From Pseudomonadota bacterium (GTDB taxonomy: Bacteria > CALINM01), in NCBI GenBank assembly GCA_026415985.1, contig JAOAGA010000021.1, positions 1-20,514 on the forward strand: DNA of 20,514 bases, written 5' to 3'. The notes under the pieces were generated by a model. That model did not search any database and was not told the DNA's origin. It saw only the letters and a program-made list of their open reading frames with translations. Of this stretch, positions 3,114 to 17,607 are shown piece by piece. The position numbers were made by a program, and so were the translations under genes. Within the stretch, counting starts at the first letter, position 1, and each line of letters begins with the position of its first letter.

Positions 3114-3119
3114 ATCCTA

Positions 3120-3126
3120 CTCCTTT
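3120..3126 (-). promoter_or_regulatory. Ribosome binding site of the actin-like gene
   Basis: AAAGGAG on the minus strand sits six bases before the ATG at 3111-3113, a near-ideal position. It suggests efficient independent initiation of this gene, whereas the two genes downstream rely on overlapping codons. Confidence 0.7.
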
Positions 3127-3226
3127 ATAAAATTTGATTAAGTTTAATTTTGAGTTTTAGGCTAAAAACTACTATCAACCCAAATCTCCGCTAATATAAT
3201 TTATGAACTTACTCTTATCCATTTGA

Positions 3227-3841
3227 TTAATAGACCCCTTTTGTCCTGAACTCCTTTCTTTTGGTTTCTATCTCTATATTTTTTCTCACAAACTCTGCCT
3301 CATAATAATCGGTAAAGGGTGATAATATTATATAATTTAGCCCGTTCTTTTTAGACAATCTTGCGGTATGATAACCCAATGAAATAAGATTGTCCTTAAC
3401 CGAGACAGCCTCATCATCATTTTTATAGGTAGCGACAACCTGATAAAATTTTGGTTTTTTAGGTTCTTCTTTTTTCTTAACTTCTTCCTTGACTTCCTTA
3501 TCCTTTTTTACCTCTTCCTTTTTATCTTTAGCAGTTTCCTTCGTTTCTACCTTTTTTGGCTCCTCTTTTTTCTGTTCAGTTTTTTTAGTTTCAACCTTTT
3601 TGTCTTCTTTTGCAATCTCTTTGGGTTCTTGCTTCTTTACTTCATCCTTTTTACCATCCTTACTCATTGGCTTTTCCGTTTCTTTGGCTGTTTGTAAAGA
3701 TGTTATTTTTGGCATCACGATTTTAACCTTAGATGGCATTTCAGGTGCAGAAGGCTCTGACTGAAGAATAAACAGATAATAATAGGCTCCCCCTATGAGA
3801 AGCAAAGATATGATAACTGAATATATTATCGCCTTTTTCAT
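3227..3841 (-). CDS. SPOR-domain membrane protein with Lys/Glu-rich linker
   Basis: A 204-residue, single-pass inner-membrane protein with an N-in/C-out layout. MKKAIIYS leads into a hydrophobic helix (about 5-26). A highly charged linker of alternating Lys and Glu runs from about 52 to 130. A C-terminal SPOR-like domain (about 131-195) has YQVVATYKNDDEA at its start and a YIILSPFTDYYEAEFVRKNI half-repeat at its end. SPOR domains bind peptidoglycan strands stripped of stem peptides, mostly at the division site. The linker is long enough to span part of the periplasm. A TTG six codons upstream is also in frame, but AAAGGAG at 3847-3853 lies five bases before this ATG and inside the longer form, so the ATG is chosen. 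It lies downstream of a LysM protein and a CpoB-like lipoprotein, which fits a cell-envelope group. The SPOR sequence is divergent, lacking the usual Gln-Val-Gly-Ser-Phe run. Confidence 0.8.
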   Translation of the reverse strand: MKKAIIYSVIISLLLIGGAYYYLFILQSEPSAPEMPSKVKIVMPKITSLQTAKETEKPMSKDGKKDEVKKQEPKEIAKEDKKVETKKTEQKKEEPKKVETKETAKDKKEEVKKDKEVKEEVKKKEEPKKPKFYQVVATYKNDDEAVSVKDNLISLGYHTARLSKKNGLNYIILSPFTDYYEAEFVRKNIEIETKRKEFRTKGVY

Positions 3842-3846
3842 CTCTT

Positions 3847-3853
3847 CTCCTTT
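3847..3853 (-). promoter_or_regulatory. Ribosome binding site fixing the start of the SPOR gene
   Basis: AAAGGAG on the minus strand is followed by AAGAG and then the ATG at 3839-3841. Because this site would be inside the coding sequence if the upstream in-frame TTG were used, it decides in favour of the shorter, 204-residue protein. Confidence 0.7.
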
Positions 3854-3903
3854 AAACAAATCACGTTGTTAAATCAATAATACAATTCTTCTTGTATATC
3901 ATA

Positions 3904-3928
3904 ATTTTCAACTCAGAAGGTTGAAAAT
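3904..3928 (-). terminator. Hairpin across the LysM gene stop codon
   Basis: A perfect 9-bp inverted repeat, ATTTTCAAC and GTTGAAAAT, flanks a 7-base loop that contains the TGA stop of the LysM gene (3913-3915). The stem is AT-rich and is followed on the minus strand by TATGATATAC rather than a run of T, so it is not a convincing intrinsic terminator. It may attenuate transcription, stabilise an mRNA end, or mean nothing. It lies in the 71-bp gap before the SPOR gene. Confidence 0.35.
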
Positions 3929-4977
3929 CTGTAGCCTGCCTCAACAATATCTCTTATCTCAATTACATAGGCACAGGAGATATTATCCCATGTCTTTACA
4001 ACAACCATCCTCCCCAAATCAAGATAGCGCTCTCTTTTCCCGCCAAGCATCTTTTCTATTTTCAGGATATTCCCCTTCGTAAGTCCGTCCAGACTTCCCT
4101 TGTCAATAAAAACAAAGCTTTTATCAGATATAAAGAAGCTTTGTTCAACACCGCCTATAATCCTTCCCTCAAGAAAAACTTCAGATTTATTAAGGACTAT
4201 CTCGTAATTCTCCGTATCTTTCTCCTTAATTAATATATCACCTTCATTTATTTCTCTGTATGATTTTATAACCCTGCCAACGGACATGTTGGGATACACT
4301 TCTGTAATCTTGATCTTACCTATCTTTATATAAAACTTGCCGAAAAATCTTTGCGTCAGTTCATCCACAATATCCTTTTGATATCTGATAATTGTATATA
4401 CATCATTTAAACTGACGGAGTTAATATCCCCTCCATCTATAAAATACTCTGTACCACTCTCTCCCAATTTTTTATTGGTATCTACAGAAGTAAGAATCTT
4501 AATCTTACTATCCACCTCTTTTGGAAATATGAAACCAAGCCTGTCTAACTCCCTGAGGTCCAATACGAACTTTTTTACCTTTTCTTTCTCTTCTTTCTTC
4601 TCCTCTATGCCAACTTCTCTTGCCTTTTCTTCGTATATAACCTTTTCTTCTACCTCAACCTTTGGTTCCGGAATAACCTGCTCTTCCTTAACCTCAGCCT
4701 TTTCCTGTTTCTTCTCAATAACTATCTGATCTTTATAGATTCTCAAGGTCCAACCGGGATAAATCCAGTGCGGATCTGTCACTTTAGGATTTAATTTCCA
4801 GATGTTTATCCATTTATAGGGATCTTTTTTATATTTTTCAGAAAGACTCCAAAGGGTATCTCCTTTTCTTACAATATGTTCCTTATACTCTTCTCCTCTA
4901 ACCATCAGTGGAAGGGTAATAATTACAACGAACGAAAGAAAAATTTTTGAAAAAAGCTTATATTTACTTATTTTCAT
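3913..4977 (-). CDS. Secreted LysM-domain peptidoglycan-binding protein
   Basis: A 354-residue exported protein. Residues 1 to about 28 form a signal peptide (Lys-rich start, hydrophobic core FLSFVVIITLPLM, then VRG-EE). A LysM domain follows at about 33-82, with HIVRKGDTLWSLSEKY and the end HWIYPGWTLRIYK; it binds N-acetylglucosamine chains of peptidoglycan. Residues 88-135 are a Glu/Lys-rich linker. The remaining 210 residues form a mostly beta-predicted domain with VGRVIKSYREINEGDILI, seen in similar LysM proteins of Desulfobacterota and related groups but without an assigned activity. No amidase, peptidase or lytic motif is visible. The ATG at 4975-4977 lacks a strong Shine-Dalgarno sequence. 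It follows the CpoB-like gene by 15 bp, so the two are probably co-transcribed. The likely role is a structural or scaffolding protein of the cell wall. Confidence 0.85.
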   Translation of the reverse strand: MKISKYKLFSKIFLSFVVIITLPLMVRGEEYKEHIVRKGDTLWSLSEKYKKDPYKWINIWKLNPKVTDPHWIYPGWTLRIYKDQIVIEKKQEKAEVKEEQVIPEPKVEVEEKVIYEEKAREVGIEEKKEEKEKVKKFVLDLRELDRLGFIFPKEVDSKIKILTSVDTNKKLGESGTEYFIDGGDINSVSLNDVYTIIRYQKDIVDELTQRFFGKFYIKIGKIKITEVYPNMSVGRVIKSYREINEGDILIKEKDTENYEIVLNKSEVFLEGRIIGGVEQSFFISDKSFVFIDKGSLDGLTKGNILKIEKMLGGKRERYLDLGRMVVVKTWDNISCAYVIEIRDIVEAGYRFSTF

Positions 4978-4992
4978 AATATTTTCCAGAAA

Positions 4993-5793
4993 TTACTTAA
5001 TTTTTTTCGCTGGTTCTGAATCTTTATATTTTTTTAAGAGCTCCTTTTTCCATTTTTCCGCTTCCTTTTTATTGCCCAACTCAGTATAGGCCAAATATAT
5101 TTTATAGTAGGCATCAGGAGCCTTATTACCATCGGGGTATTTTTCAACCTTTTTAAACTCTTCTATAGCCTTCTGAAAATTTTTCTGAGAATAATAGCTT
5201 TCTGCTATCCAGTACTGTGCATTATCTGCCAGTGCATCCTTAGGATACTTTTGTAAAAACTCCCTGAATATAGATATCGTCTGGGGGTATTTTCCCTGAC
5301 TATACATCTCATAGCCTTTGTTGTAGAGGGTCTGACTCGTCTCCTTTTGAGTTACCTCTTTTACCTCAAGAGGTTTTTCTTCTTTTTTAGGTGTCTCAGT
5401 TTTTGCTTCATCTTTTTTAACTTCCGGTGTTGCCTGTTTTTCTGCCGTTTCCGAAACCTTAATTACTCCTTCGGGCTTAATACTAATAACGCTCGACGCA
5501 GGAACCGGGGTAAGTTTGGCTGATTCGGTAACCTCTAAAAGAGGATTTGTTTTAATTCTTTCAAGGTTTTTCTCTAAGGAACCTATTTTTTCATCAATCT
5601 TATCCAATCTCTCTGTTACCTCTAACTTAATATTTGTATCTCTCTTTGCCTTCACTTCCAGAGCTTCAACTCTTTGGGAAAGAGCAACAAGCTGTGACTG
5701 AAAATCTTTGAAGTACTCTGTCTGGACCCTGTCGGAAGAGCCTGCACAGGCCGATAATATAAAGATCAAAATTGGTAATATCGCTTTTTTCAC
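4993..5793 (-). CDS. ybgF: CpoB/YbgF-like TPR lipoprotein
   Basis: A 266-residue predicted lipoprotein with the architecture of CpoB/YbgF, the Tol-Pal-associated factor that coordinates peptidoglycan synthesis with outer-membrane constriction. The N-terminus ends in the lipobox LSAC (Cys16), followed by Ala rather than Asp, which fits outer-membrane sorting. Residues about 28-83 form a heptad-like coiled coil, the trimerisation region in YbgF. A Lys/Glu/Pro-rich linker follows (to about 150). Residues about 153-262 hold three TPR-like repeats, including YNKGYEMYSQGKYPQTISIF and AQYWIAESYYSQKNFQKAI. Classical E. coli CpoB is a soluble periplasmic protein, so the lipobox is a variation. The start is GTG at 5791-5793, overlapping the fbp stop by four bases (GTGA) and preceded by a strong ribosome site. 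tolB, pal and tolQRA are not in this window, so the link to Tol-Pal is by family only. Confidence 0.8.
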   Translation of the reverse strand: MKKAILPILIFILSACAGSSDRVQTEYFKDFQSQLVALSQRVEALEVKAKRDTNIKLEVTERLDKIDEKIGSLEKNLERIKTNPLLEVTESAKLTPVPASSVISIKPEGVIKVSETAEKQATPEVKKDEAKTETPKKEEKPLEVKEVTQKETSQTLYNKGYEMYSQGKYPQTISIFREFLQKYPKDALADNAQYWIAESYYSQKNFQKAIEEFKKVEKYPDGNKAPDAYYKIYLAYTELGNKKEAEKWKKELLKKYKDSEPAKKIK

Positions 5794-6776
5794 ATTCCCT
5801 CCTTTATAAAATTTAATACTTCTTCCACATCAGTTTTGCTTCCGATAATCAAAGGAGACCTTTCATGTAACTCCGATGGAGTTTTATCCAAAATCCTCAT
5901 CTTTCCATCTGTTGCTATACCGCCTGCCTGCTCAAAAAGATATGCCATAGGAAAACACTCATAAAGAAGTCTTAGCTTGCCCTTTGGATTTTTTTTGTCA
6001 CCGGGATACAGAAATACACCACCTTTTAAAAGTGTTCTATGGGCATCGGCAACTAATGTGCCCACATACCTCAAGGATTTCTCTCTCTTCTCCTTTGTTT
6101 TTTCTATATATCTTTTTGTCCAGTCATCCCAGATAGCGTAATTCCCTTCGTTAATACTATAGTTTTTCCCCTTTTCAGGAACCTTTATACCCTCATGGGA
6201 AAGCAAAAACTCACCCACACTTGGATCAAGCGTAAAACCATGAACTCCCTGACCTGTCGAGTATACAAGCATCGTGCTTGAGCCGTATATTACATATCCT
6301 GCAGCAACAATATTTCTACCACACTGAAGAAAATCATTAACGTCAGGGTGGTCTCCCTTGCTCACCCTTTTAAAGATACAGAATATTGTTCCGATACTAA
6401 TATTTACATCAATATTGGAAGATCCGTCGAGAGGATCCATAACCATAATGTATTTTCCTCTGGGATAGTATTCAGGGACAGGACAAAAATCATCCATCTC
6501 TTCCGATGCGAAGGCAGCCAAATAGCCGGTATGTTCCAGATGCTTGATAAAGGTCTCATTGGCAAATACGTCTAACTTCTGAACCTTTTCACCGTGAACA
6601 TTCTCCTTTCCTGTCCCGCCTAAAATATCCACCAGGCCAGCCTTTCTTACCTCTCTCGTAACAATTTTTGCAGCTGTTGCAATATCATTTAAAAGAGAAG
6701 TAAACTCTCCTTTTGCCTCGGGATAACTTCTTTGCATTTCAAGGATAAACTTGGTAAGAGTGGTTCCTGTCGTCAT
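5790..6776 (-). CDS. fbp: Fructose-1,6-bisphosphatase class I
   Basis: A 328-residue cytosolic enzyme that hydrolyses fructose 1,6-bisphosphate to fructose 6-phosphate and phosphate, the committed step of gluconeogenesis, using Mg2+. Family marks are the N-terminal TTGTTLTKFI, GEFTSLLNDIATAAKI, NVHGEKVQKLDVFAN (59-73), the metal ligands SEE (91-93) and the signature DPLDGSSNID (114-123). GKLRLLYECFPMAYLFEQAGG lies near the substrate-binding C-terminal part. Length is normal for class I. The ATG at 6774-6776 is six bases from AAAGGAG; a GTG one codon earlier would sit only three bases from it and is less likely. It is the first gene of a run with the CpoB-like, LysM and SPOR genes and has a good promoter 43 bp upstream. 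Supplying fructose 6-phosphate for amino-sugar and wall synthesis would explain its company, but that is inference. Confidence 0.97.
   Translation of the reverse strand: MTTGTTLTKFILEMQRSYPEAKGEFTSLLNDIATAAKIVTREVRKAGLVDILGGTGKENVHGEKVQKLDVFANETFIKHLEHTGYLAAFASEEMDDFCPVPEYYPRGKYIMVMDPLDGSSNIDVNISIGTIFCIFKRVSKGDHPDVNDFLQCGRNIVAAGYVIYGSSTMLVYSTGQGVHGFTLDPSVGEFLLSHEGIKVPEKGKNYSINEGNYAIWDDWTKRYIEKTKEKREKSLRYVGTLVADAHRTLLKGGVFLYPGDKKNPKGKLRLLYECFPMAYLFEQAGGIATDGKMRILDKTPSELHERSPLIIGSKTDVEEVLNFIKEGM
5797..5805 (-). promoter_or_regulatory. Ribosome binding site of the CpoB-like gene inside fbp
   Basis: AAAGGAGGG on the minus strand lies in the last codons of fbp, three bases before the GTG start at 5791-5793. 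An ATG in another frame overlaps this GTG but meets TGA at once, so the GTG is the true start. Confidence 0.7.
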
Positions 6777-6782
6777 CACTTT

Positions 6783-6789
6783 CTCCTTT
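6783..6789 (-). promoter_or_regulatory. Ribosome binding site of fbp
   Basis: AAAGGAG on the minus strand, followed by AAAGTG and the ATG at 6774-6776. The six-base spacing supports the ATG over the GTG immediately before it. Confidence 0.65.
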
Positions 6790-6818
6790 CGACATAGAAA
6801 GACATAATCTTTAAGGCA

Positions 6819-6847
6819 AATATATCAGATATTTAAAACAAATTCAA
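6819..6847 (-). promoter_or_regulatory. Sigma70-type promoter for fbp and the envelope genes
   Basis: On the minus strand, TTGAAT (6842-6847, -35) and TATATT (6819-6824, -10) are separated by exactly 17 bases. Each hexamer matches consensus at four to five positions. Transcription would start near 6812, giving a leader of about 35 bases before the fbp ATG. The opposite direction, towards the radical-SAM gene, has only a weak -10-like TATGCT near 6910 and no convincing -35 box. Confidence 0.55.
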
Positions 6848-6926
6848 CATTTTCTGATAATGAAAAAAATTTTATTCTTTTCATAGTTATGGAAAACAAC
6901 CGGTCTTATATGCTAAATTAAATATT

Positions 6927-8324
6927 ATGAATATTCTACTCATTAAGATGAATAGTCCCGCCGATGAGATAATTCCGCCTATTTCTCTCGGATATTTAGC
7001 ATCAGGTGTTCTTGACAGGCATAACGTAACCATCCTTGACAATTTAAAGGAAAAACTTTCTTTAGAAGAAATCTCAGAAAAAGTAAGAAAGTTTGATATA
7101 GCAGGCATAACTCTCTTTACAAAAGACCTCTCGCTCTGCAAAAAATATTTAAAAACAATAAAATCCGCCAACCCAAACTGTATTACTGTACTCGGTGGCC
7201 CACACCCATCGGCCTTACCAGAAGAAACAATGTTTTTTTTTAAAGATTTAGTCAACTATCTTCTGGTTGGGGAAAGTGAGACTGGTTTCCCAAAACTAAT
7301 TAATTTTATTGAGTCTGGAAAGCCTGAACTGAATGAGATTGAAGGACTTGTATATATTAAAGATGGAAGTATCAAAAAAAATACACCTATATGTATTGAA
7401 AACATTGATAATTTTAAAATAGCATGGCAGTTAATTCCTCCAGACTCCTATCCTCAGGCACCCCACGGAGCATTCTTTAAACAATTTCCCATTGCCCCAA
7501 TAATTACTTCCAGAGGTTGTCCCTTTCATTGTACTTTTTGTGGTGGCCATATAATTTCAGGAAGAAAAATCAGGCAGAGAAGCGTTGATAATGTCATAGA
7601 AGAAATCGGGTTACTTTACAAAAACTATGGGGTCCGCGAGATTCATATAGAAGACGATAACTTTACTTTTAGAAAGGATTATGTTCTTGAATTTTGCTCA
7701 AAACTGAAATCAAATTTTCCGGATATAACCTGGACCTGCCCTAACGGTGTAAGGATAGATACCCTGGACGAAGAGATGATTTCTGCTATGAAGTCATCGG
7801 GTTGTTATGCCTTGTCAATAGGCATAGAATCGGGGAGTAACAGAATATTGAAACTAATGAAAAAATCATTAACAGTCGAAAAAACAAAAGAGAAGGTAGA
7901 AATGTTGAAAAAGTTTGATATTGATATAAACGCCTTTTTTATACTTGGCTATCCCGGAGAGAAAAAGGAAGATATTGAAAAAACGATAAATCTTGCCCTG
8001 TCACTACCTCTCAAAAGGGCTTCCTTTGCAAATTTTCAGCCACTTCCAGGAACAGAATCATATTATAATTTAATCAAAGAGGGACTGCTTAAGATAGATC
8101 ACTGGGAGAAATTCAGCCCATCTCTTCAATCAACGATATGGTCAGCACCGGGATTTACAGTGAGAGAACTTGCCTGGTACAGAAGAAAGGCCCTTCTTAA
8201 ATTTTATCTGAGACCCCGAATAATGTGGCATTTTCTGAAAGGTATCAGAAACTTACAACATTTTTACTATATCTTTAAACGTGCTTACAGATGGCTTACT
8301 TATACCGGGGAGAAGACTTTATAA
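6927..8324 (+). CDS. Radical-SAM protein with B12-binding-like N-terminal domain
   Basis: A 465-residue iron-sulfur enzyme of the B12-binding/radical-SAM class (BchE/HpnJ-like layout). Residues 1 to about 140 resemble a cobalamin-binding Rossmann domain (MNILLIKMNSP at the start, VLGGPHPSALPEE at 88-100) but lack the DxHxxG histidine motif, as many members do. The radical-SAM cluster motif is Cys198-x3-Cys202-x2-Cys205 in SRGCPFHCTFCGGH. RQRSVDNVIEEI, the acidic EDDNFTF stretch and SIGIESGS follow in family order. This is the only plus-strand gene of note. Its ATG has no clear Shine-Dalgarno sequence. The last 29 bases overlap the 3' end of the convergent TMTC-like gene. The family carries out methylations, ring formation and other radical chemistry on lipids, cofactors and peptides; the substrate here is unknown. 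Proximity to the glycan genes hints at lipid or glycan modification, but only weakly because it is not in their operon. Confidence 0.88.
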   Translation: MNILLIKMNSPADEIIPPISLGYLASGVLDRHNVTILDNLKEKLSLEEISEKVRKFDIAGITLFTKDLSLCKKYLKTIKSANPNCITVLGGPHPSALPEETMFFFKDLVNYLLVGESETGFPKLINFIESGKPELNEIEGLVYIKDGSIKKNTPICIENIDNFKIAWQLIPPDSYPQAPHGAFFKQFPIAPIITSRGCPFHCTFCGGHIISGRKIRQRSVDNVIEEIGLLYKNYGVREIHIEDDNFTFRKDYVLEFCSKLKSNFPDITWTCPNGVRIDTLDEEMISAMKSSGCYALSIGIESGSNRILKLMKKSLTVEKTKEKVEMLKKFDIDINAFFILGYPGEKKEDIEKTINLALSLPLKRASFANFQPLPGTESYYNLIKEGLLKIDHWEKFSPSLQSTIWSAPGFTVRELAWYRRKALLKFYLRPRIMWHFLKGIRNLQHFYYIFKRAYRWLTYTGEKTL

Positions 8325-9954
8325 TCCCTTTTACATCTTTTATATTTTTCAGATATTTTTCATCCCCTGTCATGCTATAGGCCCTCTCAAAAAAAGACAA
8401 TGCAGACATATAATTACCCTTTATAAACTCAATCTCCCCTAATCTGTTATAAATATCTCCGTTGTTTTTGTCAAAATTTAGGGCCTGATTAAAAAACCAT
8501 TCTGCAGAGGTTATATCCTTCTCTTTCAGGGCTATCTCCCCAAGAAAATAATAGGAAGGTCCAAAGTTGGGCTTATATCTTAAAGAGGCCAAAAAGTTTT
8601 CTTTTGCCTCTATAAGAAAATTTTTGTCATATAAAACTCTCCCTAAATCATAATAACCGCCGTAACTCTGCGGTGATATAGATATTACCTTTCTGAAAAC
8701 ATTTTCTGCTCTGTCTAAATCACCGATAAAATAATAGTAAACCCCTATCTCATTCCAGACCAATGGATCATCAGGTGCATCTTTCAATGCTTCTGATATA
8801 AATTTTTCCTGATTCTCATAGGAATAGTTCCTTTTGACAGTATAGATACCTGAAACAAGTGAAACTATCAGTAAAATAAATGTTGCCCTTCTTAGGCTTA
8901 ACCTGTTTATCAGATATGAAAGAATAAAACTTAACCCGAAAGAAGGCAGATATAAATATCTATCTGAGCCGAAGGTAATGGTAGAGGTTATAACAACGCC
9001 CGAAACAGGCAGGATTAGTATCAAAAACCATAAAACAAAAAAAACAAGCCTTCTCTCAACCCTGACGATTAAAAAAGATATTACAGAAAAAATTATTAAA
9101 ATAATCAGGGATGATAAAATCTCAATATCAAAATAATTTTTTATTAATCCGCTGTAAAAAATTTTAAGATTAAAAGGAATAAAAAATTTTTTCAAGTAGA
9201 AGGCTACGTTATGAATAATGGTTAAAAACCTTATAATAACAGGCACATTTTCACCAAAGGGCTCCGGTAAAAGAATTTTCCTGATAAGTATATAGAAAAA
9301 CGATATTACTATGTATGGAAAAAAATAAATCAGCTTTGAGTTTTTAATATCATTGAGGTTTTTCACATTTATGAACAAATCACAGAAAATATATAAAAGC
9401 GGAAGTACTACCGCTGTCTCCTTTGACAATAGTGAAAAACCATAAAATAAATAACCCCAGTAAGATTTTTTAATATAAAAGTATAGAGATATAAACCCAA
9501 AAAGACTGTATAAAAGCTCGTTTCTCGCCGAGATCCATGAAACCGCCTCAGAATGGGTTGGATGAACAGAAAAAATAACAGCGGTAAAAAGAGCGGTTCT
9601 TTTATCAAACTTTAGAGATAAAACTACCTTATATAAAAAATAAGCTACTAAAACTTGTAAAAGCAAGTTCCCCAAATGAAAACCAAAGGCACTGCCATTA
9701 AAAATCAGGGCATCAATTGCCAGAGAAAGAAAAAAGACAGGTCTATAATAGGAGACGTTCTCTCCTACTCTGGAAATTAAGAAGGACAGGTCTTTTACTG
9801 ACGATATTAACCTGTCGTTAAAAACTATCTGTCTTATATCGTCCCAGACAAAATCAAAAAAAAGCGTATTGAAATATAGAATCAGATTTATGAAAATCAG
9901 AATAAAAACTTCTTTCCGCTCTTTAACACTATTTATAAAGACCTTTTTTATCAT
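8296..9954 (-). CDS. TMTC-like GT-C glycosyltransferase with TPR tail (copy 1)
   Basis: A 552-residue polytopic membrane protein with a TPR tail, the layout of animal TMTC O-mannosyltransferases. Roughly ten hydrophobic segments fill residues 16-372. The first outer loop holds FDFVWDD (W37-D38-D39), the GT-C acidic pair expected to be catalytic. YYRPVFFLSLAID (69-81) and GFHLGN follow, then HPTHSEAVSWISARNELL (131-148) and SDRYLYLPSFGL (330-341). Each has a counterpart in TMTC proteins. Four TPR repeats occupy about 397-532 and should face the periplasm. By analogy it would use a polyprenyl-phosphate sugar to glycosylate proteins, but donor and acceptor are not shown by the sequence. It overlaps the ALG5-like synthase gene by 26 bp and is read from the same strand. 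Its 3' end overlaps the radical-SAM gene by 29 bp tail to tail. Confidence 0.82.
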   Translation of the reverse strand: MIKKVFINSVKERKEVFILIFINLILYFNTLFFDFVWDDIRQIVFNDRLISSVKDLSFLISRVGENVSYYRPVFFLSLAIDALIFNGSAFGFHLGNLLLQVLVAYFLYKVVLSLKFDKRTALFTAVIFSVHPTHSEAVSWISARNELLYSLFGFISLYFYIKKSYWGYLFYGFSLLSKETAVVLPLLYIFCDLFINVKNLNDIKNSKLIYFFPYIVISFFYILIRKILLPEPFGENVPVIIRFLTIIHNVAFYLKKFFIPFNLKIFYSGLIKNYFDIEILSSLIILIIFSVISFLIVRVERRLVFFVLWFLILILPVSGVVITSTITFGSDRYLYLPSFGLSFILSYLINRLSLRRATFILLIVSLVSGIYTVKRNYSYENQEKFISEALKDAPDDPLVWNEIGVYYYFIGDLDRAENVFRKVISISPQSYGGYYDLGRVLYDKNFLIEAKENFLASLRYKPNFGPSYYFLGEIALKEKDITSAEWFFNQALNFDKNNGDIYNRLGEIEFIKGNYMSALSFFERAYSMTGDEKYLKNIKDVKGIIKSSPRYK

Positions 9955-10651
9955 AATATTTAATCTTTAAAACTTCCCTGAGCATTCTAAAGGCATCTCT
10001 TATAATTTTCATTTTCGAATCTTCCCTGTCAATCCACAAAACGGGATATTCCTTAATCTTGAAACCCCTTATCTTAGCGATGTGTAAGATTTCTACATCA
10101 AAGGCATAACCATTTATTCTTGATTTTTTAAAAATTTCCTTTGCAACATCTGATTTAAAAAGTTTAAATCCACATTGAGTATCTTTTACTCCCCTGAAAC
10201 CAATAACGCCAATTATTATATTAAACATTCTGCCTATAATCTTTCTGTGCAGTGGCCTCTTTTTAATTTTTGCTCCTTCTGCCAGTCTTGAGGCAACAAC
10301 AATATCAGATCCTTTATCTAATTCCTCTTTCATGCCTTTTAGGTTTTCCATAGGAGCAGATAAATCTGCATCTGTAAAAAGAATAACTCGACCTTCCGAT
10401 AAAAAGATTCCGTCTTTTACAGATTTGCCCTTGCCTTCATTGATTTTGTGTTTGATTATCTTTAGCTGATTAATTTTATGAGATAATTCTTTTAAGATTT
10501 CTTCTGTTCTGTCTTTAGAACCATCGTTTACAACAATTATTTCCCATGTATATTTGTTGTCAGTCAAATATTTTGCTATGTTTTTAACCGTATCAGCTAT
10601 TAGTAACTCTTCATTATAAGCAGGAATAACGACAGATATATCAACTTTCAT
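9929..10651 (-). CDS. GT2 polyprenyl-phosphate sugar synthase, ALG5-like
   Basis: A 240-residue GT-A fold glycosyltransferase of family GT2, closest in motif pattern to dolichyl-phosphate beta-glucosyltransferase (ALG5/DPG synthase). It carries SVVIPAYNEE (6-15), NDGSKD (42-47, nucleotide site), the metal motif DADLSAPMENL with D94 and D96, then RKIIGRMFN, DTQCGFKLF and a YAFDVEIL stretch with PVLW. Such enzymes move one sugar from UDP-glucose or GDP-mannose to a polyprenyl phosphate on the cytosolic face of the membrane. There is no C-terminal membrane helix, so it would bind the membrane peripherally. It lies between two TMTC-like genes and overlaps the downstream one by 26 bp. No strong ribosome site precedes its ATG. 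The 111-bp gap upstream holds a TATAAT on the minus strand. The sugar identity (glucose versus another hexose) is not certain. Confidence 0.85.
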   Translation of the reverse strand: MKVDISVVIPAYNEELLIADTVKNIAKYLTDNKYTWEIIVVNDGSKDRTEEILKELSHKINQLKIIKHKINEGKGKSVKDGIFLSEGRVILFTDADLSAPMENLKGMKEELDKGSDIVVASRLAEGAKIKKRPLHRKIIGRMFNIIIGVIGFRGVKDTQCGFKLFKSDVAKEIFKKSRINGYAFDVEILHIAKIRGFKIKEYPVLWIDREDSKMKIIRDAFRMLREVLKIKYYDKKGLYK

Positions 10652-10738
10652 AAAGTAATTTTAACAGATTTTTATCTAACATAGAACTTTGTTTATTTTG
10701 GGGACTAATTGTAGCTTTTCAGATATTTTAAATGCCAG

Positions 10739-10744
10739 ATTATA
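10739..10744 (-). promoter_or_regulatory. Possible -10 box in the gap before the ALG5-like gene
   Basis: A consensus TATAAT on the minus strand, about 90 bases before the ATG of the ALG5-like gene and just after the end of the preceding TMTC-like gene. No -35 box is seen at 16-18 bases and there is no extended TG. It may start a second transcript, or be chance in AT-rich DNA. The rest of the 111-bp gap (10652-10762) shows no clear terminator. Confidence 0.25.
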
Positions 10745-10762
10745 CCTACACTTTTTAAGAAC

Positions 10763-12547
10763 TTATTTACCGCCCAGTTTTTGTAGCTTTATCCTGTATT
10801 CATCATTGTCTGTATCTAAAGATAGAGCCTTTTCGTACATCTCTTTTGCCAGCTTAAAATTGCCTACCATAGCATATATGTCTCCCAGTTTAGCATAGGC
10901 TTTATAATAATCGGGGTTGTATGCCAAAACATTTTTAAAGGTGTTCTCGGCATTTATTAAATCATTTTTTCTTAAAAAGATTTCCCCTATCTCATATAAA
11001 ACGTTTGGTTCGTTAGGGTTGATCTCAAGGGATCTGTAAAAAATAGCCAAAGCTTTGTCCAAATCACCAATCCTTAGGTATAAATCAGCTAAATCATTAA
11101 GAGCAAGATAATAATAGGGATCTAACTTTAAGGCCTGAAAATATTTTGATTCAGCAAGTTTATACTTACCCCATCTTTTGTATAAATTGCCCAGCTTGTG
11201 ATGTATCTGAGGGTTTTGTGAATCTGCTACCTCAAGTCTTTTAAGTTCTATTTCTGCCTGTGAATAATATTTTCTCTCCATATATGCAGTTGCTAACTTA
11301 TCCATAACATAAGGTTCATAGGGCTCATTTTCCTCAGATGTTTTCCAAAGAGTTAAATCATCTTTGTATTCCAAGTTTCTTTCTAAGGTAAGTGCTAAAA
11401 AAACTATAGTTACGATAATAAAAAAAGCTTTAGCTATTAATGCCCTCGTGCGATTATAGGCAGAGATGGCTCTGTAAATGTCAGCATATAAAATACCTAT
11501 AAACATTGCCAACCCAAAAGATGGTATATAAAGATACCTCTCTGCAATCAAAGCGGGATATATGAGAGTCACTATTGTTGTAACCGGAATCAGTGTAACT
11601 ATAATCCACATAAAGGAAAAAAATAAACGCCTGTCATACTTTCTAAGTGAAAAAACTATAAAAAGTATTGTTAAAAATCCAATTAAGTAGATAATAGAAT
11701 ACCAGTCTGAAAACCTCTGAAAAATTTCAACTCTATAGAAGGCTTTATGAAAAAATGGGAAAAAAAGCAAGAATATGTCATACAATATTACTTTAGAAAA
11801 TGTGGCCAGTCGCCATATAATGGGATACTCATTTTCAGCAGATTCCACAATTGCCAGTCTGATAAAAAAATATATTAATGAGGTAATTATAAAAAACAGA
11901 GTAGTTTTTATATGTTTTTTTATCTCTTCTCTGTGAAAGGTGTATTCATATAAGATTACTAAAAATGGCATTGTAATTGCCATCTCTTTGGATAATAGCC
12001 CCAGAAAATAAAAAAAAAGGCTTAAAAATAAAAAAATTTTTTTATCTTTCTCAAACCTGAACCTGGTATAAAAAGAGAAAGAATGGAGCAAAAAAAAGCC
12101 ACATAGTAACTCATTTCTTGCAGATACATAAGATACTGTGGCAGAATGGGTGGGATGAACAGCAAAGACTATACTGGCAATAAAGGCAACGGTTCTCGAT
12201 TTAAAAAGCCTTTCAGCAATTATAAAAACTAAAATGTTATTAAAGATATTTATCAAAATGTTTGTTAAATGAAAACCAAAAGGATTATTTCCCCATATTT
12301 TATAATCAATCAAAATAGACAGCATAAACATGGGACGGTAATACAGTGGCATTTCAGGAATAGGCTGTAAGAAGAAATCAAATATGTTTCTGAAGTTTCT
12401 GACCGACGGGTTATATTTTATCTGATGAACATCATCCCATACAAAATCAAAAAAAAGACTATTGGCAAAAGTAATAAAACAAATGGCTATTATAAATACT
12501 AAATATAACAACAATCCTTCATGCTTAATTTTTCTGAAAGAAAACAT
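10763..12547 (-). CDS. TMTC-like GT-C glycosyltransferase with TPR tail (copy 2)
   Basis: A 594-residue membrane/TPR protein paralogous to the neighbour ending at 8296. The shared landmarks are LFFDFVWDD (W37-D38-D39), LYYRPMFMLSILID (68-81), FGFHLTN, FAVHPTHSATVSYVSARNELL (128-148) and AERYLYIPSFGL. About ten hydrophobic segments precede the tail. The tail (about 428-594) is longer than in copy 1, with five or so TPR units such as IHHKLGNLYKRWGKYKLAES and ALNDLADLYLRIGDLDKALA. The start ATG overlaps the stop of copy 3 by one base (TGATG), so the two are translationally coupled. As for copy 1, a polyprenyl-phosphate sugar donor and a protein acceptor in the periplasm are inferred from the family and from the DPM1-like gene upstream. 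Copies 1 and 2 are also alike at nucleotide level in the conserved loops, pointing to duplication. Confidence 0.82.
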   Translation of the reverse strand: MFSFRKIKHEGLLLYLVFIIAICFITFANSLFFDFVWDDVHQIKYNPSVRNFRNIFDFFLQPIPEMPLYYRPMFMLSILIDYKIWGNNPFGFHLTNILINIFNNILVFIIAERLFKSRTVAFIASIVFAVHPTHSATVSYVSARNELLCGFFLLHSFSFYTRFRFEKDKKIFLFLSLFFYFLGLLSKEMAITMPFLVILYEYTFHREEIKKHIKTTLFFIITSLIYFFIRLAIVESAENEYPIIWRLATFSKVILYDIFLLFFPFFHKAFYRVEIFQRFSDWYSIIYLIGFLTILFIVFSLRKYDRRLFFSFMWIIVTLIPVTTIVTLIYPALIAERYLYIPSFGLAMFIGILYADIYRAISAYNRTRALIAKAFFIIVTIVFLALTLERNLEYKDDLTLWKTSEENEPYEPYVMDKLATAYMERKYYSQAEIELKRLEVADSQNPQIHHKLGNLYKRWGKYKLAESKYFQALKLDPYYYLALNDLADLYLRIGDLDKALAIFYRSLEINPNEPNVLYEIGEIFLRKNDLINAENTFKNVLAYNPDYYKAYAKLGDIYAMVGNFKLAKEMYEKALSLDTDNDEYRIKLQKLGGK

Positions 12548-14100
12548 CAGTTCAGCCCTTGCAACATATCTCTATATTTCTTCTTATGGGGAGAAATTTT
12601 TATTGCCCTGTTTAAATACTCCTTTGCCTTTTCTGTATTATTTTTTATTAAATTAACCCTTGCAAGCCCCCAGTATGCCTCATCATACTCGCTTAACTCC
12701 AAAGCTTTGTTATAATAGATTTCTGCAGTAATGTAGTCATTAAACCTAAGATAAAAATTACCAATTTTTGTGTAGTTATCGTAATCTCCCGGACTAATCT
12801 GTGTAATCTTATCATAAACCATTAATGCAGAGAGATAATCTTCCTTACCAAGATATACCTGCGCCAGTTGATCTAATGCGTATGTGTTTGTAGGGGCGGA
12901 CTCAACTGCTTTCAGCCAGAACAGATGATTATCCTCATATGGCAACATTCTTTTGTATATGGTATAAAAACCAGGTATTGAAAAGATAATAATAAAAGAA
13001 AATATAAATATCTGTTTTTTCTCAATTTTTTCAACGAACAGCTTTACAAACTCCGGTATCAGAAAGGAGAGCCCTATAAGCGGAATATATAAATATCTTT
13101 CGGAAATGAGGCTTGGGTACATAATATAGGGGATGTTTGATACAAAAAAGAAAGTAAGAAAAAACCAGAGAAGACCTAAAAAAACATTCCTGTTCTTTCT
13201 GGCCGAAACCCAAAGGCCATAAAATAATGATAGCAGGACAACAAGCCCGGCCAAAACATTTAAATCAAAAGATTTTTTAAAATAGGAAAAGTTTTCATAA
13301 AAAACCTTGAGATTAAAAGGGAAAAGTGAAATCTCCAAATATTTAATAAAAGTGGAGAGACCGGTAAAAAATCTCGTAGGGAAAGGGACATCAAGCCAGA
13401 TAAATCTGTTTAAAACCATCCATCTAATAAGAATATAGACGACTATTATTAAGATATGAGGAATTAATAGTTTTAAAGTCTTTCTTAGATTGTAAAAACC
13501 CTGTTCAAAAATAATAAATACAGGTAAAAAAATAGTCATTTCAATGCTAAAAACAGCTAAAAGATAGGTAAAAACAGAAAGATAATAGAATTTTTTATTA
13601 TTTTCTTCCTCCTGCTTCTTAAGAAAATAGAAGGTAAGTAAAGAGAATAAACCTCCTAAGATATGTAGCCTTGCACTAACATAGACAACTGCCTCTGATC
13701 TTGCAGGATATATACTCACAATAAGTGTACCTATAAAGGCATAAAGATCATCCTTAAAGAAATACTGTAAGGTCAGAAAAAGCACAATGGTAAGAAGTAC
13801 GTGAAATATTATATTTGTCAGATGAAATAAGGAGGGTGTGTCATTAAAGAAAAGAAAATCTATTGCCAAAGAAAGTAAAAAAACTGGTCTGTAATAGGGG
13901 GTTTTGGACTCTCTGCCTACAATACCAGATTCGCCATCTTTAGTAAAAATATCAATTAGCTTAAAATTCTTTACTGTTTCATTATTTATTATCTGGGGTA
14001 TATCATCCCAGACAAATCCAAGGGTTAAAGCCTTCGCATAAAAGATAAGATTTATTACAATAAGCAAAAAAAGAAATATCTTTTTTTTATCCTTAATCAT
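12547..14100 (-). CDS. TMTC-like GT-C glycosyltransferase with TPR tail (copy 3, divergent)
   Basis: A 517-residue paralogue of the two genes downstream. It keeps the acidic pair in GFVWDD (W31-D32-D33), PYYRPVFLLSLAID (68-81), LFHLTN and SERYLYIPLIGL. The second loop, however, reads YPARSEAVVYVSARLHIL where the others have HPTHSEAV and SARNELL. The two histidines of that motif and the Asn-Glu pair are lost. The C-terminal tail (about 402-517) has about three TPR units, fewer than in the others. The ATG at 14098-14100 overlaps the TGA of the methyltransferase gene by four bases (ATGA), and its own stop overlaps the next start by one. It is most likely a membrane glycosyltransferase with a different acceptor, or a partner subunit with altered activity. 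The fold assignment is good; function is inferred. Confidence 0.8.
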   Translation of the reverse strand: MIKDKKKIFLFLLIVINLIFYAKALTLGFVWDDIPQIINNETVKNFKLIDIFTKDGESGIVGRESKTPYYRPVFLLSLAIDFLFFNDTPSLFHLTNIIFHVLLTIVLFLTLQYFFKDDLYAFIGTLIVSIYPARSEAVVYVSARLHILGGLFSLLTFYFLKKQEEENNKKFYYLSVFTYLLAVFSIEMTIFLPVFIIFEQGFYNLRKTLKLLIPHILIIVVYILIRWMVLNRFIWLDVPFPTRFFTGLSTFIKYLEISLFPFNLKVFYENFSYFKKSFDLNVLAGLVVLLSLFYGLWVSARKNRNVFLGLLWFFLTFFFVSNIPYIMYPSLISERYLYIPLIGLSFLIPEFVKLFVEKIEKKQIFIFSFIIIFSIPGFYTIYKRMLPYEDNHLFWLKAVESAPTNTYALDQLAQVYLGKEDYLSALMVYDKITQISPGDYDNYTKIGNFYLRFNDYITAEIYYNKALELSEYDEAYWGLARVNLIKNNTEKAKEYLNRAIKISPHKKKYRDMLQGLN

Positions 14101-14738
14101 TTTCGGGCAACCAGTACAGAATATGTGAACAAATCTTTTATACCAAAATAATATTCTACTAATTTTAAATCAGTTTTGTTTAAAAAATCTATGGCTTCTT
14201 TTTTAGATTTAAGCCTCGACGGCTCTTCGGGATAAAAATCGGGATTTTTTTTCAAAATTATTTTCCAGAAAAACAGTAATATCTTAAAAAAAACAACACT
14301 TAACCCAAACTCCGGCGGGACAAAAATTATTATAAAACCGCTGTTTTTTATCACTCTTTTAAACTCTGAAAATAACCTTATAATCTCATCCTTATTAAAA
14401 TGCTCAATCACACCGAGATTATACAACACATCAAAGGTATTATCTTTAAAGGGAAGATTAAATATATCTGCCCTTATTTTTTTTCTGTCAACCATATTAA
14501 TTTTTAAAGCAGTCAGGGAAATATCGCAAGCGGTTATGTTATAACTTTCTATTATATCTTTATCTACTTCGCCACTTCCGCAACCTGCATGAAGCAGTTT
14601 GGTATTTGGACCTGAATATTTTTTTATAAAATGGTTAAGAGACCTTTTTATAATCCTGTTACGATAAAAAGATGCAATAGTATCATAAATCTTTCTCTTT
14701 TTATCTCTTTTAGCTTCCCAGTATTCTTCCCAGTTCAT
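14097..14738 (-). CDS. Class I SAM-dependent methyltransferase
   Basis: A 213-residue cytosolic methyltransferase of the Methyltransf_11 type. Motif I is LLHAGCGSGEVD (48-59), followed by CDISLTAL (71-78), an ADIFNLPFKDNTFDVLYNLGVIEHF run that holds motifs II and III, and FKRVIKNSGFIIIFVPP (motif IV). Its start overlaps the DPM1-like stop by one base (TAATG), and its stop overlaps the following TMTC-like start by four, placing it firmly in the glycan operon. The C-terminal part contains a hydrophobic stretch (about 155-168) that may sit against the membrane. The substrate is unknown: it could O-methylate a sugar on the lipid carrier or on the finished glycan. Related proteins are common in polysaccharide and glycosylation islands. 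Confidence 0.85.
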   Translation of the reverse strand: MNWEEYWEAKRDKKRKIYDTIASFYRNRIIKRSLNHFIKKYSGPNTKLLHAGCGSGEVDKDIIESYNITACDISLTALKINMVDRKKIRADIFNLPFKDNTFDVLYNLGVIEHFNKDEIIRLFSEFKRVIKNSGFIIIFVPPEFGLSVVFFKILLFFWKIILKKNPDFYPEEPSRLKSKKEAIDFLNKTDLKLVEYYFGIKDLFTYSVLVARK

Positions 14739-15448
14739 TATCTTTTCAATCCGAGCCGATATAAAAAAAGATTAAACAATTTATAAAGGCTTTTAAAAAT
14801 CTCTTTTATCGTCATTTTGGAATGACCATAGGTCCTTTTTGGCAGAACTATTGGTATTTCCTTTATCTTATAACCGTTTAAATTGAGAAAAAAGAGGCTT
14901 TCAAAAAAAAATGAGTATCCGTCAGACCTTACCTTGTCAAAAACTTTTTTGTCTATTTTTTTCAGATTATACAATCTGAAGGCACCAGTAGCATCATAGT
15001 CCATACCTAATAAATATTTGGTTAAAAAATGCCCGAGCTTTGTTAAAAACCTCCTATAAATATTCCAGTCTTTAAGACTATCTTCTTTTGTATATCTTGT
15101 TCCTATGACTATATCATACTCACTGTTTTCCAAAAATAAGGGAATATCTGAAGGACTATGGGTAAAATCGCAATCCATAGTAAGCAGATACTCATAGCCT
15201 TTTTCATAGGCATAAGAAATGCCGAATTTATGAGCATTTCCTATCCCTAATTTTTTTTCTCTATGAACTACTATGAGCTTTGGAAAAATTTTTCTGAGTT
15301 TTTCAAGTATTTCGCCAGTCCCATCGGGAGAGTTGTCATCTGCTACCAATAAATCACCATCTATCCCTAACTCAAAAACATTTTTTACCATTTCTTCTAC
15401 GTTCTCACTCTCATTATAGGTAGGAATAAATATCAATAGCCTATTCAT
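14738..15448 (-). CDS. Polyprenyl-phosphate mannose synthase, DPM1-like GT2
   Basis: A 236-residue GT2 enzyme with the full motif order of dolichol-phosphate mannose synthase: FIPTYNESEN (7-16), ADDNSPDGTGEI (36-47), MDCDFTHSPSDIP (91-103; D92 and D94 stand for the DxD metal site), GAFRLYN where relatives have SGFRAY, then YSFFFESL, GYKIKEIPI and RTYGHSKM. It would transfer mannose from GDP-mannose to polyprenyl phosphate on the inner face of the membrane, giving the donor used by GT-C mannosyltransferases. The absence of C-terminal membrane helices matches the short, human-type class. It overlaps the SDR gene by eight bases upstream and the methyltransferase gene by one base downstream. Presence in the same operon as TMTC-like proteins is the best clue that those use lipid-linked mannose. 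Glucose or another hexose remains possible. Confidence 0.88.
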   Translation of the reverse strand: MNRLLIFIPTYNESENVEEMVKNVFELGIDGDLLVADDNSPDGTGEILEKLRKIFPKLIVVHREKKLGIGNAHKFGISYAYEKGYEYLLTMDCDFTHSPSDIPLFLENSEYDIVIGTRYTKEDSLKDWNIYRRFLTKLGHFLTKYLLGMDYDATGAFRLYNLKKIDKKVFDKVRSDGYSFFFESLFFLNLNGYKIKEIPIVLPKRTYGHSKMTIKEIFKSLYKLFNLFLYRLGLKR

Positions 15449-16373
15449 TTTTCATATCACTCATAATCTTTATAATCATCTCTTTAAAGCCTAAAGACCT
15501 TTTCCAGCCTGTTTTTTCTGATAATTTTTTTGGATTACCAATAAGTATGGGCTTGTTCCTCTTTAAGATATTTTTATCTTCACAGACATAATTTTTATAA
15601 TCAAGGCCAAGTACTGTAAATACAACTTCCACCAAATCTCTGACTGTATGACCTTCTCCGGTAGCAATCACAAAATCATCTGGTTTGTCAATATGAAGTA
15701 TTTTTATCATAGCGTCAACATAATCATAGGCATAACCCCAATCAGTTACCGAACTAAGATTACCTACAATAATTTTATCCAGTTTTCCCTTTTTAATATC
15801 AATAGCACTCTTAATTATCTTAGGGAAAAGAAACCTGTCACTCCTAAACTCAGACTCGTGATTGTATAATATACCATTACTAACAAACAAGTGGTAATTA
15901 TCTCTATAGTAACGCCCTAAAAAAAAACCACTCGCTTTAGTTATTCCATAAATGCAGACGGGGTTAATAGGAGTTTTTTCATCCTGAATATCCGTGGGTG
16001 GATTACCGAATATGAGAGATGAGGCAGAATAAAAAACCCTTGTTTCAGGTGAATATAATCTTATGGCTTCTAAAAAATAATTATACAAAATGAAATGTGT
16101 AAAATTGCTTTTTTCCGTCAGTGATATATCATCCTCAGGGGCTTCTTCTGATGAATGGTGATAACTGGCAAGATAATACAAAAATTTTGGTTTGTACTCT
16201 TTTACAAGGGATTTTATTAACTCTTTTTCGTAAGTTTTTACTGATATTTTTTTATCTTCACCGAAATTTACAACAAAATCCTTATGAAATCCTATTATTG
16301 ATTCTTTACCTAACAGGTTACAAATTATTCTTCCGTCCTGTCCCCCCGCACCAACTACAAAGATTTTATCCAT
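15441..16373 (-). CDS. Extended SDR of the GDP-mannose 4,6-dehydratase family, non-dehydratase active site
   Basis: A 310-residue NAD(P)-binding nucleotide-sugar enzyme. The dinucleotide motif GAGGQDG (G8, G11, G14) is the GMD-type GxxGQDG. The catalytic Tyr-Lys pair is YGITK (Y142, K146). The C-terminal half (VTDWGYAYDYVDAM, PDDFVIATGEGHTVRDLVEV, GNPKKLSEKTGWK) is close to GDP-mannose 4,6-dehydratase. In the serine/threonine loop, dehydratases read STSELYG, while this protein reads ASSLIFG. The catalytic Ser118 is kept but the Glu needed for water elimination is Leu120. A GDP-4-keto-6-deoxy-mannose reductase-like or epimerase role is therefore more likely than dehydration. It overlaps the methyltransferase before it and the DPM1-like gene after it by eight bases each. 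The product would be a modified GDP- or other NDP-sugar for this cluster; its identity is unknown. Confidence 0.82.
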   Translation of the reverse strand: MDKIFVVGAGGQDGRIICNLLGKESIIGFHKDFVVNFGEDKKISVKTYEKELIKSLVKEYKPKFLYYLASYHHSSEEAPEDDISLTEKSNFTHFILYNYFLEAIRLYSPETRVFYSASSLIFGNPPTDIQDEKTPINPVCIYGITKASGFFLGRYYRDNYHLFVSNGILYNHESEFRSDRFLFPKIIKSAIDIKKGKLDKIIVGNLSSVTDWGYAYDYVDAMIKILHIDKPDDFVIATGEGHTVRDLVEVVFTVLGLDYKNYVCEDKNILKRNKPILIGNPKKLSEKTGWKRSLGFKEMIIKIMSDMKNE

Positions 16374-17607
16374 TAACTACCTCTAAATCTGGTAAAGGAA
16401 ATATTAATTTTCCTCCCTTTTTGAGAAAATCCTTTTCCTTATTGATTATCCCTCTTTTAAAATGCCAGGGAAGAACCAAAAAATAATCGGGGGCCATTTT
16501 TCTTGCTGATTCTTCTGAAATTATCGGTATTTTGGTACCGGGAGTAAAAGCACCAAACTTATCTTCGTTTACTTCTGCTATATAAGGTATTTTAACGCTG
16601 TCAATACCACAAAACTGTAATATCACATTTCCCTTTGTAGACGCACCGTAACCAAAAATCTTCTTTCCGTTACCTAACTCCCTGTCTATAAAATCATTAA
16701 GTTTTTCTTTATGTTCAAAAACCCTTTTTCTGAAATCCTCCCAGAAATTTTGTCTATTGTAACCTATTTTTTCTTCATATCTTAAAATACCGCCAATTTT
16801 TTTCAGTGCGGGGTTATATTGGCTTTCTAACTTGCTTGCTGTTATTCTTATGCTTGCCCCATTCACATTATTGAGTTTAATATTTATAATTTTCATACCC
16901 GCTTTTTCAAGTATAAATAAAATATCCTTTAAGGAGTAATACAATAAATGCTCATGGCAAATCGTGTCATACCCACATTTTTTAAAAATATTAGGAGTAT
17001 AGCTCTGTTCAAATACCCATATACCATCATCAGTCAGGATATCAGAGATATCTCTTACAAACCTAACAGGATCCTCTAAATCATAAAACATTGCTATTGA
17101 TGTAATAACTTTCGCCTTTTTACTCCCAAAATAATCTAAAAAAAGTCTCTTACTGAAAAAATCAGATATAACAACTATATCTTTTTTATAAAACCCAAGA
17201 AATTTTTTCGCTGTAGGATCAATACCTATTAAAGAATATCCGTCATCATAAAAAGAAAGCAAGGTTCCGTCATTACTTCCTATATCAACAATAATATCTC
17301 CTCTGTTAAGGCTAACCGTTTTTTTTATATCATCTACTATATCTTTCAGATGATTAACCATAGATATATTGAGAGAAGACCTGTACCCGTAGTTATCGCC
17401 ATAAAGCAATGTTAGATCAAAACTATCCCTTAGCTGAACTATACCACAAGCCTTTTCAAAATCTCCTTCACATTTAACAAGTCTTAAAAGCCCCATAGGA
17501 ACATTTTCATTTCTTCTTGGAAAGACCCCTGTATAGGCAAAATTTCCTAAAGATAATATCTCCTGAAGATTTTCGTTTCCACAAACCCTGCATCTTTTAA
17601 TTTCCAT
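16366..17607 (-). CDS. Three-domain sugar C-methyltransferase-like protein
   Basis: A 413-residue protein with the domain order of NDP-hexose C-methyltransferases (TylC3/TcaB9 type). An N-terminal zinc-binding segment has Cys6, Cys9, Cys46 and Cys54 (CGIVQL). A SAM-binding Rossmann domain has VDIGSNDGTLL (107-117) and IGIDPT. The catalytic-region motif CHEHLLYYS (218-226) follows, with the Glu and His used as base in the family. The C-terminal nucleotide-binding domain holds GYGASTKGNVIL (319-330), PGTKIPI and DYFLVLPWHFK. Such enzymes add a methyl to carbon 3 of a keto-sugar, giving branched deoxysugars. The residue before HEH is Cys, where some members have Tyr; this variant occurs in relatives. 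AAGGAAAGAG precedes the ATG. The 3' end overlaps the SDR gene by eight bases, so the two may act on the same nucleotide sugar. Exact sugar unknown. Confidence 0.83.
   Translation of the reverse strand: MEIKRCRVCGNENLQEILSLGNFAYTGVFPRRNENVPMGLLRLVKCEGDFEKACGIVQLRDSFDLTLLYGDNYGYRSSLNISMVNHLKDIVDDIKKTVSLNRGDIIVDIGSNDGTLLSFYDDGYSLIGIDPTAKKFLGFYKKDIVVISDFFSKRLFLDYFGSKKAKVITSIAMFYDLEDPVRFVRDISDILTDDGIWVFEQSYTPNIFKKCGYDTICHEHLLYYSLKDILFILEKAGMKIINIKLNNVNGASIRITASKLESQYNPALKKIGGILRYEEKIGYNRQNFWEDFRKRVFEHKEKLNDFIDRELGNGKKIFGYGASTKGNVILQFCGIDSVKIPYIAEVNEDKFGAFTPGTKIPIISEESARKMAPDYFLVLPWHFKRGIINKEKDFLKKGGKLIFPLPDLEVVNG

Follow-up and report, generated by a model that had tools for sequence, protein, structure and literature searches.

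The window analysed here, a 20,514-nucleotide contig (JAOAGA010000021.1) of the Pseudomonadota bacterium assembly GCA_026415985.1, carries on its minus strand three lineage-specific membrane paralogues (A, B, and C) that combine a glycosyltransferase fold C (GT-C) domain with tetratricopeptide repeats (TPRs), two family 2 glycosyltransferase (GT2) genes of the dolichol-phosphate-mannose (DPM) synthase type, and nucleotide-sugar tailoring genes, all in one overlapping operon. Taken as a whole, the arrangement is, with somewhat better than even probability, an accessory operon for extracytoplasmic glycosylation. TMTC enzymes, to which A, B, and C are compared below, modify animal cadherins, and their prokaryotic relatives are without known function. 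Full-length prokaryotic TMTC homologues with TPRs were reported in 2021 (PMC7801869); the open-access literature searched yielded no account of a TMTC-like operon from bacteria. By joining three TMTC-like transferases to donor synthases and tailoring genes, the operon provides a testable donor hypothesis for a common bacterial family.

Transcription runs from a sugar 3-C-methyltransferase-like gene (CMT) through a GMD-like gene, GT2b, an S-adenosylmethionine (SAM) methyltransferase gene (MT), C, B, and GT2a to A (Table 1). Open reading frames (ORFs), motifs, and Pfam matches bear out the cluster described in a first-pass annotation of this DNA, with its three GT-C/TPR paralogues, two GT2 genes, and overlapping junctions: A and GT2a overlap by 26 bases, B and C by 1, C and MT by 4, and MT and GT2b by 1, and only B and GT2a are separated, by 111 bases. 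The genes it placed at 8296-15448 are real, but the overlapping unit does not end there, as 8-base overlaps of GT2b with the GMD-like gene and of the latter with CMT extend the tandem run to at least 17607. Its inventory of a GT2 pair and a GT-C trio likewise stands but passed over MT, which lies between C and GT2b.

The similarity of A, B, and C exceeds chance, since their N-terminal domains share 33% pairwise identity at 133-142 bits (BLASTP E 4e-43 to 8e-40) and shuffled controls reached a maximum of 23.5 bits (50 shuffles per pair). FVWDD and YYRP(V/M)F are the same or almost the same in all three, as first proposed, and SAR and (D/E)RYLYxP are also common to them (DRYLY in A, ERYLY in B and C). 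C deviates from the shared motifs at HPTH, RNE, and SKE; the HPTH region reads HPTHSEAV in A, HPTHSATV in B, and YPARSEAV in C. TPR matches lie far over the Pfam cut-offs in each protein, and the tails resemble the PilW/PilF and MamA scaffolds. A, B, and C group as a separate clade (support 100/99) in a tree built from 73 proteins, which makes duplication within the host lineage the simplest origin.

A GT-C fold, whose absence would have counted against the first-pass reading, is predicted for B. The AlphaFold2 (AF2) model of this protein, made with 62 aligned sequences, has a pLDDT of 94.6 and a pTM of 0.92, and that of A, from only three sequences, was too poor for use (pLDDT 62.9). VIA-align matched residues ~2-424 of B to STT3 (Z 22.9), Pmt4 (21.1), ArnT (20.9), and Pmt2 (20.5), and paired its C-terminal tail with TPR proteins. 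The GT-C matches came from VIA-align: a Foldseek search of the model against the PDB had TPR matches alone among its top rows, no TMTC structure was among the matches listed, which has no bearing on whether one exists, and a GT-C-domain profile gave no match at E<=10 to PDB sequences. The AF2 helix list contains 11 membrane helices, with helix 243-262 counted as juxtamembrane and not as membrane-spanning, and the loops assigned inside are enriched in basic residues, in line with the positive-inside rule. Helix order and loop charges agree in placing WDD, SKE, ERYLY, and the TPRs on the predicted outer side, so that the acidic WDD pair would be non-cytosolic, as the first-pass reading required. 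The model supports B as a GT-C-fold enzyme with its active site facing outside.

From the AF2 model, the charges, and the TPR matches, the TMTC architecture of a GT-C domain with 11 membrane helices followed by outside C-terminal TPRs is present, and several of the TMTC motifs are as well. M1, the DD of the first outer loop, corresponds to D38 and D39 of B and occurs also in A and C, and M7 (ERxxY, fifth outer loop) is found in B and C and, as DRYLY, in A. Of M2 (SHKSYRP) all three retain YRP and miss SHK; M3 (RxD, second outer loop) is conservatively replaced by RNE in A and B and reads RLH in C; and M4 (KE(T/Q)xxT, third outer loop) appears as KE in A and B and IE in C. In place of the metal-binding DW of M5 in the fourth outer loop, all three have FY, and only 23 of 74 relatives aligned at this site have D or E. 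The positions run nearly parallel to those of human TMTC3 (tabulated in Table 4 of PMC7801869): DD at 31/32 in TMTC3 and 38/39 in B, YRP at 70-72 in both, RxD at 143/145 and RNE at 144/146, KE at 188/189 and 187/188, and ERxxY at 375-379 and 336-340. The segment VAFIASIVFAVHPTHS of B is similar to the TMTC3 segment KSSVIASLLFAVHPIHT quoted in the same paper. Pfam PF08409 (DUF1736) has no match among the window proteins or in the host genome, and one in 55 relatives (E 0.033). The GT-C/TPR identity put forward at first thus holds for fold, M1, M7, and TPRs, and strict membership is not supported: because DW is FY, the fourth outer loop is ~30 residues shorter than in TMTC, and PF08409 is unmatched, we class A, B, and C on sequence grounds as TMTC-like and not as TMTC proper.

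Conservation over 82 relatives, in B numbering, marks D38/D39, P72, H93, H131, P132, K187, P264, P321, and Y340 as near-invariant. A matches the family at each of the 17 scored sites and B at all except two, with K187, WDD, and ERYLY kept, whereas in C H131 is replaced by Y, K187 by I, and P321 by F. K187, in the third outer loop, is lysine in 75 of the 82, and the matching lysine of POMT1 has been reported to bind dolichyl-phosphate-mannose (Dol-P-Man; PMC6801728). A and B are probably active and C altered; these substitutions suggest that C is likely impaired and has lost normal donor use, and it may act as a non-catalytic partner. That each GT-C copy serves its own acceptors, as first supposed, is therefore overstated, C being without the conserved donor-binding lysine. 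At locus L072 (8021-11552) a tandem TMTC-like pair with a DPM-type GT2 gene directly after it has independently M and G in place of the near-invariant lysine, so this loss is not confined to C. The idea that the losses of C are shared with its orthologues elsewhere was set aside, as the sample held no close orthologue of C. Copies predicted to be catalytically intact beside donor-site-deficient ones form a natural comparison. At position 188 of B, the family alignment separates a KE class (46/82) from a KP class (17/82; HPLxVESVAW...ERK), and these classes may mark different donors or acceptors.

Both GT2 proteins are homologous to DPM synthase, as expected for the DPM1-like and ALG5-like pair originally named. 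GT2a matches the Pyrococcus furiosus enzyme (PDB 5mlz) at 2.1e-21 and sll0501 (5eke) at 9.1e-18; GT2b matches 5mlz at 3.4e-22 and by inspection carries a DxD-type motif, MDCD. Hydropathy reveals no obvious membrane anchor in either. Another DPM1-like gene of the host lies on contig C88 and shares 72-76% identity with its counterparts in two same-family genomes, compared with 34-37% for GT2b, which indicates that GT2b is an additional, cluster-specific enzyme.

Two of the genomes compared, G001 and G002, share the host family, and all others listed share its domain only. The genes at 2-6779 are syntenic in both. In G002 the place beyond the FBPase gene where the cluster would lie holds a short unrelated ORF and a gene judged NAD-synthetase-like by inspection, and a profile search found no TMTC-like genes in either genome. 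The GC content of the cluster is 0.317 against 0.372 for the flank. From 6927 onward the segment looks like an acquired island, though loss from those relatives may instead account for the absence. That the cluster is absent at the equivalent site of a same-family genome, and that its GT2b is distinct from the resident copy, are new observations. The inserted segment also includes the radical SAM gene, which has distant homologues near TMTC-like genes at loci L065, L075, L104, L119, and L129.

The tailoring genes bear on the identity of the sugar. CMT has the domain order of sugar 3-C-methyltransferases, with PF08421 (Zn-binding, N-terminal), PF13489 (SAM), and PF08484 (C-terminal), and aligns over its full length to D-mycarose 3-C-methyltransferase (4rv9, 1.2e-46) and TcaB9 (3ndi). 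Aligned to 1rpn, the GMD-like protein keeps YGITK and has SSL where TSE is expected; it may for this reason not be a dehydratase and is probably a GMD-family member of altered catalysis. A scan of 386 genomes for MT gave matches in only five, the host included. In G083 (locus L132) homologues of GT2b (51%) and MT (38%) are fused in one open frame. Directly adjoining it are a CMT homologue (49%) and the gene of a large membrane protein that has an RDE motif at its N-terminal end and is judged GT-C-like by inspection alone. G060 (L140) did not contribute to the MT profile; there MT (47%) follows GT2b (42%), CMT (43%) is convergent, and upstream lie genes of three large membrane proteins: one with PMT_2, one TMTC-like with TPRs, and one GT-C-like by inspection. 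G095 and G366 belong to one genus and have MT homologues beside GT2 genes, near which a second, independent GT2-methyltransferase fusion occurs (L142, 13276-14694). At L067 and L129, GT2a-like, methyltransferase, and TMTC-like genes lie on one strand in the same order. Both the fusion and the recurring neighbourhood speak for GT-C-type enzymes working in concert with DPM-type synthesis and methylation.

The finding that GT2b, MT, and CMT recur together next to membrane proteins of GT-C type in two unrelated bacteria is new, and because of it the sugar is possibly a modified deoxysugar and not mannose, with a GDP-linked deoxysugar bearing a C-methyl group as a candidate donor. Mannose, the sugar first assumed, fits poorly with a cluster and relatives that carry sugar-tailoring enzymes, and if the sugar is modified, a search limited to +162 Da might not detect it.

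By profile search, TMTC-like genes are present in 18 of 41 genomes in one set and 63 of 144 in another, with copy numbers of up to at least 12-15 per genome, frequently in tandem arrays. Four such genes at L133 (1883-12199) and five at L087 (5128-17061), each array within ~12 kb, point to repeated tandem expansion of the family. A DPM-type GT2 gene is present in 55 of the 63 genomes with TMTC-like genes versus 48 of the 81 without (P 1.5e-4, uncorrected for genome size or phylogeny). Physical linkage is another matter: in the first set 5 of 29 GT2 genes lay <=8 kb from a TMTC-like gene (0.65 expected), and in a fresh set 3 of 106 did (1.2 expected, P 0.12), the same three falling within 3 kb (0.54 expected, P 0.017). 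General clustering of the two gene types was accordingly rejected as at best weak, the enrichment having faded in the fresh set. Donor synthases and TMTC-like enzymes tend toward the same genomes, and tight operons like that of the window are unusual; the co-occurrence anticipated in the first-pass annotation is thus seen at genome level and is exceptional as physical linkage.

Table 1. Features of the window, with positions on the contig and the evidence for each
Feature	Position	Strand	Evidence or remark
Synteny break	6780-6926	none	Conserved genes 2-6779 on one side
B12-binding radical SAM protein	6927-8324	plus	Convergent with A, 29-base overlap
Protein A, TMTC-like GT-C + TPR, 552 aa	8296-9954	minus	Keeps WDD, YYRP, HPTHSEAV, RNE, SKE, DRYLY
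GT2a, polyprenyl-phosphate-sugar synthase-like GT2 (ALG5/GtrB/DPM type), 240 aa	9929-10651	minus	PF00535 2.3e-34
Protein B, TMTC-like GT-C + TPR, 594 aa	10763-12547	minus	AF2 model and fold matches
Protein C, TMTC-like GT-C + TPR, 517 aa	12547-14100	minus	Without His131, Lys187, Pro321 (B numbering)
MT, class I SAM methyltransferase, 213 aa	14097-14738	minus	PF08241 2.6e-15
GT2b, DPM1-like polyprenyl-phosphate-sugar synthase, 236 aa	14738-15448	minus	PDB 5mlz 3.4e-22, residues 4-229
GMD-like short-chain dehydrogenase, nucleotide (probably GDP) sugar	15441-16373	minus	PF16363 4.8e-52; PDB 1rpn 2e-45
CMT, sugar 3-C-methyltransferase-like	16366-17607	minus	PF08421 + PF08484; PDB 4rv9 1.2e-46, residues 3-410
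Fused membrane/spermidine-synthase-like protein, cut by contig end	17650-20502	minus	NF037959 4e-25

Whether the fused membrane/spermidine-synthase-like gene belongs to the cassette is uncertain; a homologue of its product (7e-70) adjoins a TMTC-like gene at L117. At 20486-20504 the contig end carries a Nextera transposase adaptor (CTGTCTCTTATACACATCT); the final ~30 bases of the contig and the first residues of this ORF (RQRQMCIRDS) are therefore artefactual.

In the proposed mechanism, GT2b (and GT2a) would transfer a sugar from its nucleotide donor to polyprenyl phosphate at the inner face of the membrane, and a flippase would turn the polyprenyl-phosphate-sugar over. A and B, through their predicted outside WDD/SKE/(D/E)RYLY site, would then pass this one sugar on to an extracytoplasmic acceptor, with the TPR tail bringing in either the acceptor or a partner. 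Instead of plain mannose, that sugar may be a C-methylated 6-deoxyhexose that the GMD-like and 3-C-methyltransferase-like enzymes help to make, and C, having probably lost normal donor use, may be a non-catalytic partner. By analogy with TMTCs, and given the TPR tail, an exported protein is a more likely acceptor than a polysaccharide. The fullest version of this mechanism is distinctly unlikely in all its parts: a mobile cassette in which CMT, the GMD-family enzyme, and a methyltransferase-coupled DPM1-like synthase would make a polyprenyl-phosphate-linked C-methylated deoxysugar that active and donor-site-deficient TMTC-like GT-C/TPR proteins put on exported proteins. If true, it would represent a TMTC-type pathway with a non-mannose sugar.

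Several points weigh against a glycosylation operon of this kind. The metal-binding Asp of M5 is Phe in A, B, and C, the GMD-like protein is without the catalytic Glu of dehydratases, and most bacterial TMTC-like genes do not adjoin a GT2 gene. No flippase is encoded among the operon ORFs and no GtrA family protein in the 84%-complete genome, other flippase types not having been searched, so that the earlier description of the pathway as complete is overstated. No evidence pinpoints an acceptor, and the GT-C enzymes of multi-component systems modify polysaccharides.

The last point leads to the best-surviving alternative, which is possible though unlikely: a variant of the Gtr-like systems in which GT2a and GT2b make polyprenyl-phosphate-sugars, the GT-C proteins attach side-chain sugars to a surface polysaccharide, and the TPRs only scaffold the complex. 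Known systems of this kind share the part list of GT-A synthase, flippase, and GT-C (PMC8035078, PMC11127046), GT2a is also similar to sll0501/GtrB (9e-18), tailoring genes like those of the operon occur in polysaccharide and natural-product clusters, and some GT-C-type proteins of the G060 and G083 cassettes have no Pfam TPR match. However, no polysaccharide polymerase or export genes are present in the visible window, GtrA is missing as noted, and A, B, and C all bear TPRs, like the protein-modifying TMTCs. A strict TMTC pathway, in which GT2b makes polyprenyl-phosphate-mannose and each of A, B, and C O-mannosylates exported proteins of its own, would account for the TMTC-like motifs and domain order and for the DPM1-like character of GT2b; it is very unlikely in view of the unmatched PF08409, the FY of M5, the loss in C of the lysine that binds Dol-P-Man in POMT1, and the tailoring enzymes conserved with GT2b. 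It is highly improbable that the GT-C domain is a non-enzymatic membrane scaffold whose TPR tails assemble another envelope machine, for although the PilW/PilF- and MamA-like repeats and the lost residues of C would suit it, A retains every scored site and B all but two, with K187, WDD, and ERYLY kept, and both share their operon with donor-making enzymes.

The proposed accessory glycosylation operon can be compared with several known systems. Like the multi-component systems (GtrA/GtrB/Gtr*, CsbB-type, GT136), the window has a polyprenyl-phosphate-sugar synthase (GT2 or other), here by homology only, and a GT-C acting outside; unlike them, its GT-C proteins are TPR-bearing and TMTC-like and not of known GT-C types, no flippase is seen, and the acceptors known for those systems are polysaccharides or teichoic acids. 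The catalytic domains of DPM synthase (5mlz) and GtrB-like sll0501 (5eke) align with GT2a and GT2b, which differ in having no obvious membrane domain. CMT follows the sugar 3-C-methyltransferases 4rv9 and TcaB9 in full-length alignment and domain order, but its neighbours are DPM1-like and GT-C-type genes instead of antibiotic genes. B shares the GT-C fold with PMT/POMT and ArnT, at about 10-14% identity, with a TPR tail in place of MIR or other domains. Among prokaryotes, uncharacterised TMTC-like proteins such as AMJ42_05695 (PMC7801869) have the same GT-C/TPR architecture as A, B, and C, yet most do not adjoin a DPM-type gene, whereas the window has three co-operonic copies in a clade of their own. 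With TMTC1-4 (CAZy GT105), A, B, and C have in common the GT-C domain, the 11 membrane helices followed by TPRs, and the nearly collinear DD, YRP, and ERxxY, with HPxH and KE in A and B; they differ in the shorter fourth outer loop, the unmatched PF08409, FY for DW, and the missing SHK of M2, and their cluster is bacterial, with donor synthases and sugar-tailoring genes of its own in the same operon.

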